A stretch of DNA of 55,385 nt from Rhodospirillales bacterium (GTDB lineage Bacteria > Pseudomonadota > Alphaproteobacteria > SMXQ01), in the NCBI GenBank assembly GCA_018666775.1, contig JABIXC010000015.1, positions 1 to 55,385 of the forward strand, written 5' to 3'. Every line of letters starts with the position of its first letter. Position 1 is the stretch's first letter. Below the pieces are notes generated by a model, which searched no databases, had not been told where the DNA came from, and worked only from the letters and a program-made list of their open reading frames with translations. Below, piece by piece: positions 14,857 to 18,641 of this stretch. Position numbers and translations under genes: made by a program.

Positions 14857-17535
14857 CTAATCATCCAGCAACGACCGCAGCACATACTGCAAGATGCCGC
14901 CATGACGGTAATAATCCACTTCATCCAAGGTATCGATGCGGCATTTCAGCGGCACGGTTTCAGTTGTGCCATCGGCGCGATGAATGGTCAACGGCAGCTC
15001 CATGCCCGGTGTGATGTCTTCTTCGATACCAATAAGGTCAAAGGTTTCCGTGCCATCAATGCCCAGACTTTTCCGCGTCACCCCTTCGGGGAACAGCAGT
15101 GGTAACAGGCCCATGCCCACCAGATTGGACCGATGGATGCGCTCAAACGATTCAACAATCACCGCGCGCACGCCCAACAGCATGGTGCCCTTGGCCGCCC
15201 AGTCCCGGGATGACCCGGTGCCATATTCCTGCCCGGCCATAATAATCAGCGGTGTGCCTTCATCAGCATATTTTGAGGCTGCATCAAAAATCGACATCTG
15301 TTCACCATCCGGCATATGCCGGGTGATGCCGCCTTCGGTGCCCGGCGCCAATTCATTGCGCAACCGGATATTGGCGAAGGTGCCCCGCATCATGACTTCA
15401 TGATTGCCGCGACGCGCACCGTATGAATTGAAATCATGTTCGCCGATTTGGTGGCGGGTCAGATAGTGACCGCCCGGACCATCGGCCTTGATGGACCCTG
15501 CCGGGGAAATGTGATCGGTGGTAATTGAATCGCCCAACAACGCCAAAACCCGGGCACCCCGGACATCAGAAACCGGGGCCGGTTCGTGGGGCATATCGGC
15601 AAAATACGGAGGAAGACGGCAATAGGTGGATTCTTCACCCCATTGATAGGTAAGGCCTTCGGTGGTTTTGACGCCCTTCCAGGCAGCATCGCCTTCAAAC
15701 ACATTATCGTAGCGTGCCAGAAACATTTCTGGCGACATGGCGGCTTCGATGGCATCACTAATTTCTGCATTGGTGGGCCAAATATCTTTCAGATACACAT
15801 CATTGCCGTCTTTATCCTTACCCAGCGAATCGGTGACCAGATTGCCCTTGAGCGACCCCAAAAGGGCGTACGCCACAACCAGCGGCGGTGAGGCCAGATA
15901 GTTGGCTTTGACGTGTGGATGCACCCGGCCTTCGAAATTGCGGTTCGATGACACCACGGCGGTGGCTACCAGATTGCCTTCATCAATGGCCTTTGAAACG
16001 GCTTCGTCCAACGGTCCGGAATTGCCGATACACGTCATGCAACCGAAGCCCACGATGTTAAACCCAAGCGCATCAAGATCATCCTGCAAGCCGGCTTTTA
16101 CCAGATAATCCGCCACCACCTGAGACCCCGGTGCCAGAGATGTTTTAACCCAAGGCTTGCGGGTGAGGCCCTTGGCCACGGCCTTGCGGGCCAAAAGACC
16201 CGCACCAATCATCACGGCCGGATTTGACGTATTGGTACAGCTGGTGATGCCCGCCAGAACCACATCGCCATGGGTCAGATCATGTTCCATGCCCTCTATG
16301 GCAACGGACGCATTGGCATTGGCATCGCCCAGAAGATCAGGCAGGGCTTTGATGAAGGCTTGATCAGCTTCTGACAACAACACCCGGTCTTGGGGGCGTT
16401 TTGGCCCGGCAAGGGAGGGTTCAACCGTAGAAATATCCAGCGACATAGAATCAGTGAACACGGGGTCGGGGGCGCCTGGAACCCGCCACAGGCCCTGGGC
16501 CTTGGCATAGGCTTCGGTCAGGGCAATGGCGTCTTCATCACGGCCCGTGAAGCGCATATAGCGAAGGGTTTCATCATCTACTGGGAAGAAGCCACAGGTG
16601 GCCCCATATTCCGGCGCCATATTGGCAATGGTGGCACGATCGGCAAGCGCCAAATTGTCCAGACCGTCGCCATAAAATTCGACAAATTTTCCGACCACGC
16701 CTTTTTTGCGGAGCATTTCAACCACGGTCAGAACCAAATCTGTCGCCGTGTTGCCTTCTTTCATGGCCCCGGTCAGCTCGAACCCAACCACTTCGGGGAT
16801 CAGCATGCTCATGGGCTGGCCCAACATGGCTGCTTCGGCTTCGATGCCACCAACCCCCCAGCCCAGCACTGCCAGACCATTGATCATGGTGGTGTGAGAA
16901 TCGGTCCCCACCAGCGTATCGGGATAGGCAACGCCGTCTTCATCGGTCCAAACCACTTTGGCCAGATATTCCAGATTGACCTGATGGCAGATGCCCGCCC
17001 CCGGTGGCACCACCCGGAAATTATCAAAGGCCTTTTGGCCCCAGCGCAAGAAGGAATAGCGTTCCTGATTGCGTTCATATTCACGTTTGGTGTTGGCCTT
17101 GAAGGCATCATTCGTGCCGTAATTATCAACCATGACAGAATGATCAATGACCAAATCCACCGGCGACAACGGATTGATGCGATTGGCATCCCCACCAAGA
17201 TCCAGCATCGCCTGGCGCATGGCGGCCAAATCCACCACGGCGGGCACGCCGGTCAGGTCCTGCATCAGAACCCGGGCCGGGCGATATGCAATTTCATGGT
17301 CTGAGCGTTTATTCTTCTGCCAATCGGCAATCGCTTGCACGTCTTCTTTGGTGACGCTGCGCCCGTCTTCGAACCGCAACATGTTTTCCAGCAATATCTT
17401 CAGCGACACCGGCAGACGGGAAACGTCCCCAAGGCCACCCTCAGCGGCTTCGGGCAGACCGAAATAGGTGTATGTTTTACCCCCTACTTCAAGGCTGCGT
17501 TTGGATTTGAAACTATCAACTGAATTGCTGGCCAC
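14857..17535 (-). CDS. acnA: Aconitate hydratase A
   Basis: Interconverts citrate and isocitrate in the TCA cycle using a 4Fe-4S cluster. The 892-residue length is that of the AcnA/IRP1 type. Cluster cysteines are in [10 protein letters not shown] and [12 protein letters not shown]. Other family marks are [21 protein letters not shown] and, in the swivelling C-terminal domain, [16 protein letters not shown]. The start is GTG, preceded by AGGAGA at good spacing. Its promoter should lie in the 17536-17760 region. It may form the head of a minus-strand unit with the ELM1 gene, which starts 14 bases after its stop. Confidence 0.97.
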
Positions 17536-17765
17536 GATTGGTCTCCTGAAATACCCAAGGGTGTAAAACCGGCAACCACGTTGCCGTCACGCCCTAATGT
17601 AACATTAAAAATCCTATGAAACCTGCGTGTTAACGGAGATTCTTCCCTTCGTCAAATTTCCTGTGCCCTAACCGGACACCCCCCATATGCCCCCAAACGT
17701 AAAAAACCACATTTCCGCCATCTTCAGGGCCTGCTTAGACCATATTTCAAAGCCCATATGATTGT

Positions 17766-17895
17766 GCTGGAAGTTCGCAGGATTTATCCCCTCCCCCTCA
17801 GGTGTGTGAAATTCCAGCAAAGCCTCCGCACCGGCCATTTACCCCCCGGCCGGATGCGAGAACGGCCACCGGCCCCCACCGGTGGCCGTTTTTTT
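17766..17895 (+). ncRNA. Candidate structured small RNA or ccm leader with C-rich loops
   Basis: This is the only gene-free stretch above 300 bases. Three consecutive stem-loops can be drawn. H1 pairs GCTGGAA (17766-17772) with TTCCAGC (17812-17818), and its loop contains CCCCTCCCCCTC. H2 pairs CCGGCC (17831-17836) with GGCCGG (17848-17853), with a loop ending in six C. H3 is a 12-bp terminator stem with loop CCCCCA and seven T. All three loops expose C-runs complementary to ribosome-binding sites, as in C-rich-loop regulatory RNAs. TATGAT at 17757-17762 could be a -10 element, but no good -35 is seen. The alternative is an attenuator leader for ccmA. No hallmark of SRP, 6S or tmRNA is visible. 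Confidence 0.45.
17861..17895 (+). terminator. Strong intrinsic terminator upstream of ccmA
   Basis: A perfect 12-bp stem, AACGGCCACCGG with CCGGTGGCCGTT, around a 6-base loop and followed by seven T. No plus-strand protein gene precedes it, so it ends either a small RNA or an attenuated leader. It stops 26 bases before the ccmA start. Confidence 0.88.
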
Positions 17896-17921
17896 ACTGA
17901 TTTTTATGGTATATGGAACCC

Positions 17922-18641
17922 ATGACTGACCTGAATACAGCGACAAACGTGGAATCTTCGAACGCGCATGGCTATTTCTGCAAAGACTTGGCCTGTGTCA
18001 GGGGCGGACGGTTGCTGTTCAGCGATTTGGCATTTCGCCTGAAACCCGGCAGCGTTCTTTTTCTGACCGGCCCAAATGGCGTTGGTAAATCCAGCCTTTT
18101 GCGTGTTTTGGCCGGGTTTTTACCATCAGAACGCGGCCAATGCGGGTTTGAGTCGCCCGATTATTGGGGGACGGCCATCACGTATCTTGGCCATCATGAC
18201 GGGTTAAAGCCACTTTTGACGGTTTCTGAAACGCTCAATTTCTGGATCACCCTTTCCGGGCATCTAGACCTGGATGCCCCCGATGCAACGCGCCAACGGG
18301 TCCTGGAAGATTTTGGGCTGGCGCCCATCGCCGATTTGCCGTGCCGTTATCTGTCCGCCGGACAACGGCGCAGGGTAGCACTGGCACGGACCGGGTGCGC
18401 CGCCAGCACGCAGAGCGCCTTATGGCTTCTGGATGAACCCACCACCTCCCTTGATCGCGCCAGTATCCATGCCTTTGAAGCGGTGCTGGCGCGCCACCGC
18501 GAAAAAGGCGGCATGGCCATTATCGCCACCCATTCAGAAATCAGGGCCGACGACAGTGACACCCTTGAAATCGCCCGATTTAAAACCGCCCCGGAACACG
18601 ATCCCTTTTATCGTGGCCAAGACCTGGACATGGAAGCATGA
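17922..18641 (+). CDS. ccmA: Heme exporter ATP-binding protein CcmA
   Basis: ATPase of the CcmABCD complex, which releases holo-CcmE during cytochrome c maturation. The ABC domain shows Walker A GPNGVGKSS, signature LSAGQRRRVALAR and Walker B LWLLDEPTTSLD, with the H-loop in IATHSE. I favour the ATG at 17922 because GGAACCC lies just before it; an in-frame ATG at 17913 has no ribosome site. It heads the nine-gene ccm operon and overlaps ccmB by 4 bases. Confidence 0.94.
   Translation: MTDLNTATNVESSNAHGYFCKDLACVRGGRLLFSDLAFRLKPGSVLFLTGPNGVGKSSLLRVLAGFLPSERGQCGFESPDYWGTAITYLGHHDGLKPLLTVSETLNFWITLSGHLDLDAPDATRQRVLEDFGLAPIADLPCRYLSAGQRRRVALARTGCAASTQSALWLLDEPTTSLDRASIHAFEAVLARHREKGGMAIIATHSEIRADDSDTLEIARFKTAPEHDPFYRGQDLDMEA

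Follow-up and report, generated by a model that had tools for sequence, protein, structure and literature searches.

NfeR1, of the ar14 family (RF02344), silences mRNAs by pairing its three redundant anti-Shine-Dalgarno (anti-SD) loops with ribosome-binding sites, and its targets are ntrB and transporter mRNAs (PMC10746234). Six copies of NfeR1 occur in S. meliloti (PMC7143759). The ar14/NfeR1 and cuckoo RNAs of the Rhizobiales have three hairpins with variable stems, C-rich unpaired anti-SD motifs and a terminator, and they are found in several copies with no fixed position. Hairpins showing six-C runs are also a feature of the 6C RNA of Actinobacteria (RF01066). MmgR, of the alphaproteobacterial MmgR/suhB RNA (RF00519), acts in trans with an anti-SD loop and is 77 nt long in S. 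meliloti. The CcsR RNAs (Rhodobacter, CIN1 locus) are alphaproteobacterial stress RNAs that the literature groups with the cuckoo RNAs, and are present as tandem copies processed from a DUF1127 mRNA (PMC10253847).

The DNA analysed here, referred to as the window, is a stretch of 55,385 nucleotides from a Rhodospirillales bacterium. At 17760-17921 on its plus strand, three hairpins with C-rich loops are followed by an intrinsic terminator, and the element resembles the ar14/NfeR1 and cuckoo RNAs in its variable stems and in unpaired C-rich motifs of anti-SD type. The features of the locus are as follows.

14857-17535, minus strand: acnA, aconitate hydratase, the divergent neighbour (open reading frames of the window; divergence kept in many loci)
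17707-17713, plus strand: conserved upstream box CCACATT (YCACAHT comparison)
17734-17762, plus strand: putative promoter of the RNA, CTTAGAC at 17734-17740 and TATGAT at 17757-17762 (sequence)
17765-17895, plus strand: predicted small RNA of about 131 nt, from hairpin 1 through the T-run (cmsearch with model R2)
17765-17819, plus strand: hairpin 1, bipartite stem with a large C-rich loop (fold; compensatory changes)
17821-17827, plus strand: single-stranded linker AGCCUCC (DNA AGCCTCC) with an anti-SD core (invariant in the family alignment)
17828-17857, plus strand: hairpin 2, C6 loop at 17842-17847 (fold; stem comparison)
17861-17895, plus strand: hairpin 3 and T7, forming the intrinsic terminator, C5 loop at 17873-17877 (fold; compensatory changes)
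17907-17914, plus strand: extended -10 TGGTATAT of the ccmA promoter (position-locked in relatives)
17922-18641, plus strand: ccmA, heme exporter ATPase, with a probable leaderless start at ATG 17922 (list of open reading frames, relatives, position of the -10)

Folding of 17760-17921 gives a minimum free energy of -65.3 kcal/mol, where shuffles average -45.8 (z = -5.29), and none of 200 dinucleotide shuffles was equally stable. Hairpin 1 has a stem of eight outer and six inner pairs and displays the C-run CCCCTCCCCCTC (as RNA CCCCUCCCCCUC) in its loop at 17788-17799. The stem of hairpin 2 has nine pairs with one bulge and its loop run is CCCCCC, and hairpin 3 (17861-17890) has 12 pairs and the loop CCCCCA at 17873-17878. 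The T-run of the terminator (T7 at 17889-17895) ends about 26 nt before the ATG of ccmA at 17922. An earlier sequence-only reading had given the stems as 7, 6 and 12 bp, of which the 12 pairs of hairpin 3 stand whereas the values for hairpins 1 and 2 do not. It was right that all three loops carry a C-run (17788-17799, 17842-17847 and 17873-17877), that the terminator has seven T and that no plus-strand protein gene precedes the element; acnA is on the minus strand, and the terminator is thus without any plus-strand protein gene to end. The unpaired linker at 17821-17827 had been overlooked. Hairpin 3 was not called by a terminator scan of the window, which by our own reading of the sequence is a limitation of the tool, since a G-T extension of the hairpin uses up the T-run.

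Relatives of ccmA were gathered from public genomes and from the window's own family, whose 11 genomes were all used. Seven family sequences were aligned (A1) and the covariance model R2 was built from these seven; cmsearch with R2 matched the window at 17765-17897 with 104 bits. In the consensus fold of A1, 6 of 26 pairs are changed on both sides. A stem alignment of family sequences (7-9 relatives), made by eye and thereby biased toward the structure, shows compensatory changes in all three parts of the hairpin 1 stem (outer, middle and inner) and at 4 of the 12 pairs of hairpin 3. The linker is the most constant portion of the element, being identical in all seven sequences of A1 and found in 10 of 13 members checked. 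One relative, L031, has no C-run in the loop of hairpin 2. The sequence-only reading had staked its small RNA on conservation among relatives that keep the acnA-ccmA order, and in the covariance comparison of this gap the stems do covary and the element is conserved. That the element instead encodes a short protein might be thought from a GTG frame in the window, open from 17764 into the ccmA start. In relatives, however, the frames are interrupted or displaced, the length of the RNA varies by numbers not divisible by three and there is no conserved peptide, so that this explanation is extremely improbable and was rejected.

A search of the 11 family genomes with R2 gave the ccmA-upstream element as the top match in every one, and in the window's genome the match at ccmA was the only one. 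Among 190 genomes of the class, R2 matched in 12 besides the window's own match at E<=0.01, and 8 of these 12 non-self matches lie on the same strand as ccmA and no more than 1.5 kb upstream of it, a placement that chance would give almost nowhere. Weaker matches at ccmA were found in Paramagnetospirillum marisnigri (L043), Magnetospirillum sp. UT-4 (L054) and Aerophototrophica crusticola (L086). In L117 and L119, family members in which no acnA start lies alongside, the RNA is still present at ccmA (52 and 51 bits), and ccmA is thus the gene to which it is linked. As judged from these sequences, the best explanation is that the element would be single-copy and belong to an undescribed family that has a fixed place upstream of ccmA in Rhodospirillales-like alphaproteobacteria. 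At one further locus (L156:1501-1907, G191) two copies of the RNA stand in tandem before ccmA, each with its own terminator hairpin.

A count of hairpins presenting at least four consecutive C in the loop, taken over the 350 nt that precede ccmA at 83 loci, gave 72 in sense orientation (in 45 loci) against 3 in antisense and 13 in shuffles. An independent sample of 80 genomes drawn evenly over the class gave 34 sense (23 loci) against 4 antisense, the positives clustering in those genomes that have the ccmA nearest to that of the window. Many loci differ in layout, for example those with CCAGAGA-C6-TCTCTGG hairpins preceded by a hairpin with a CCUCCUC loop. The elements of these differing loci agree with the window RNA in where they lie and which way they point, in their C-loops and terminator and in the promoter box, and from this synteny and architecture, not from a common covariance model, we infer that they are homologous to it. 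The exact CCAGAGA-C4-TCTCTGG was absent from all 385 sampled class genomes and from viral contigs, which places the CCAGAGA clade outside that sample. In L129, L130, L131 and L147, near 1501-1620, an unrelated conserved CTCCCAGACGTGAAGCCTCCCTGTT is followed by a GGCCGG terminator, a combination that recurs in several alphaproteobacteria. A second model, R1, was built from the CCAGAGA-type relatives and dropped as evidence because it mainly detects terminators; none of its matches fetched as loci adjoined ccmA.

Strong GC-rich terminators are common, and together with the R1 matches, which were mostly terminators, this would fit an ordinary terminator or palindrome-rich intergenic DNA giving rise to no regulatory RNA. 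Such an origin of the hairpins is very unlikely, as there is no plus-strand gene to terminate, the C-loops have a strand asymmetry of 72 to 3, and hairpin 1, which is not a terminator, covaries while the linker is invariant. We hold with high confidence that the element at 17765-17895 is a real, conserved small RNA gene. The small RNA proposed from the sequence of the window alone is well supported by the conserved place beside ccmA, by stems that covary, by C-loops specific to one strand and by the element's own promoter and terminator.

At 30 of 74 alphaproteobacterial loci, the window included (17907), an extended -10 (TGNYATA-like) keeps a fixed distance to the start codon of ccmA, at -14 to -17. 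In the window it lies 15 nt before ATG 17922 and downstream of the hairpin 3 terminator. The ccmA start at 17913 in the list of open reading frames is probably wrong and ATG 17922 right, and the position of the -10 indicates a ccmA mRNA that would be leaderless and begin at this ATG. With the ccmA -10 position-locked downstream of the terminator, the RNA would be transcribed as a unit of its own in those loci. The earlier suggestion that the RNA is processed from a ccm leader is therefore disfavoured, ccmA having its own -10 past the terminator. In all confident cases the RNA is directly upstream of, and sense to, ccmA, and the gap from T-run to ATG 17922 is only about 26 nt, as would also be expected of a cis-acting leader or attenuator of the ccm operon in which hairpin 3 is conditionally read through into ccmA. 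The position-locked -10 of ccmA in those 30 of 74 loci argues against this, as do the two terminator-bearing tandem copies before ccmA in L156 and the lack of an antiterminator fold in the minimum-energy and centroid structures, and a leader of this kind is considered unlikely.

When compared with Rfam at the gathering threshold, the whole window returned two tRNAs only, and 19 related loci returned nothing above threshold. With the ar14 model (RF02344) the window RNA scored 31.8 bits, below the gathering value of 58.8; there was no match at E<=10 in its whole own genome and none at E<=0.5 in the loci of 19 relatives. The RNA is like ar14/NfeR1 in being alphaproteobacterial, about 120-130 nt long and provided with a similar -35 CTTAGAC, but it has C-runs in place of the ar14 hallmark CCUCCUCCC, which was found in the hairpin loops of none of 13 members checked. 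Unlike the ar14 and cuckoo RNAs it is single-copy and fixed at ccmA. Hairpins 2 and 3 align with the 6C RNA (RF01066), with which the window RNA scored 37 bits, below the gathering value of 47; it differs from 6C in phylum and in adding the large hairpin 1 and the CCUCC linker. The suhB model (RF00519) gave no match in the window and a weak match of 26 bits in one relative (L042), and MmgR is the shorter RNA. Unlike CcsR, the window RNA is a stand-alone gene beside ccmA. By its sub-threshold scores, its lack of CCUCCUCCC and its single fixed copy, the RNA resembles ar14 and 6C in action, with membership of either unproven. A plasmid search gave no match to the element, and in the literature searched no paper was found that names a ccmA-linked small RNA, an earlier mention in work on cuckoo RNAs being possible. 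Our verdict is a new small RNA family of a known kind, without an Rfam entry.

On the analysis as a whole, the gene is probably an independent one of about 131 nt for a trans-acting anti-SD repressor. Transcription of the RNA (17765-17895) would begin at a promoter of its own, run toward ccmA and stop at the hairpin 3 terminator, and the C-rich loops and CCUCC linker of the RNA would pair with the G-rich translation-initiation regions of several mRNAs. Such pairing would block ribosome binding and turn down translation, as in NfeR1. Targets were tested in 455 kb of the window's genome with crudely called start codons. Duplex energies between loops and ribosome-binding sites, compared with control ATGs over all starts in the 455 kb, were not significant (P = 0.056). 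GGGGG was present in 4.7% of start regions, while the controls, taken further upstream and at internal ATGs, had it in 1.6% and 1.1%, an enrichment before start codons of approximately 4-fold (Fisher P = 0.004), and thus a minority of mRNAs offer matching sites. Start regions with G5 include those of the genes for transhydrogenase beta subunit, electron-transfer flavoprotein alpha, ribosome recycling factor, an amino-acid-kinase-family protein and ATP synthase b; these genes are candidate targets, a lead and not a result. Repression of several targets via pairing of loops with Shine-Dalgarno sequences, as proposed earlier, is plausible on indirect evidence.

Repeated C-loops on variable stems would also fit multivalent protein binding, and with the weak outcome of the energy test for ribosome-binding sites the RNA might sequester a protein that binds C-rich loops rather than pair with mRNA. 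We know of no C-loop-binding titration RNA of such layout. Sequestration is unlikely in view of the linker, which preserves the exact anti-SD core CCUCC, and of the enrichment of G5 or GGGAGG stretches before start codons.

The predicted start of the RNA is at about 17765-17769. The promoter of NfeR1 has a -35 heptamer, CTTAGAC, identical to that of the putative promoter in the window (PMC10746234). A generic sigma-70 consensus scan of the window did not call the RNA promoter. In the 120 nt before the RNA at 37 loci, YCACAHT occurred 43 times in sense and never in antisense, the shuffle mean being 2.5. Most often the box begins 25-29 nt ahead of the RNA, with a T-rich -10-like element after it. 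In the window itself the proximal promoter box is degenerate. A second half-box with at least 5 of 7 matches is located exactly 11 bp upstream at 14 of the 43 sites, other upstream distances giving at most 1. The region 17560-17764 and the upstream regions of L031-L121 contain this 11-bp direct-repeat box (YCACAWT / GCATAAT), which is a probable response-regulator site. Direct repeats spaced by 11 bp are typical of the OmpR/PhoB family of response regulators, and the box pattern suggests that the RNA may be controlled by a regulator of that type.

A wider reading, offered tentatively and with less than even confidence, is that the ccmA-linked C-loop RNAs with a response-regulator-type promoter represent an ancestral global translational repressor in Rhodospirillales and neighbours, the fixed site reflecting a functional link to cytochrome c or heme supply, and that the CCAGAGA- and Magnetospirillum-type elements are diverged homologues. 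A single-copy regulatory RNA gene kept beside ccmA in many families and absent from Rfam would add a conserved anti-SD RNA to much of the alphaproteobacteria beyond rhizobia, culturable magnetotactic bacteria included, and make C-loop RNAs akin to NfeR1 and 6C a recurring design. It would also provide a tractable system for asking how generic loops choose their targets and if the RNA has a connection with cytochrome c maturation.

PhoB was considered as the regulator by comparison with the pstS promoters of the same family, whose boxes read TGTCAC-N5-TGTCAT. The RNA boxes have the 11-bp repeat and the CACA core in common with these but read YCACAWT, a partial resemblance. In the window's own genome (L270, G000:C3) a Pho-box-like CTGTAACATTGCTGTCAC is found approximately 50-65 nt before the pstS start.
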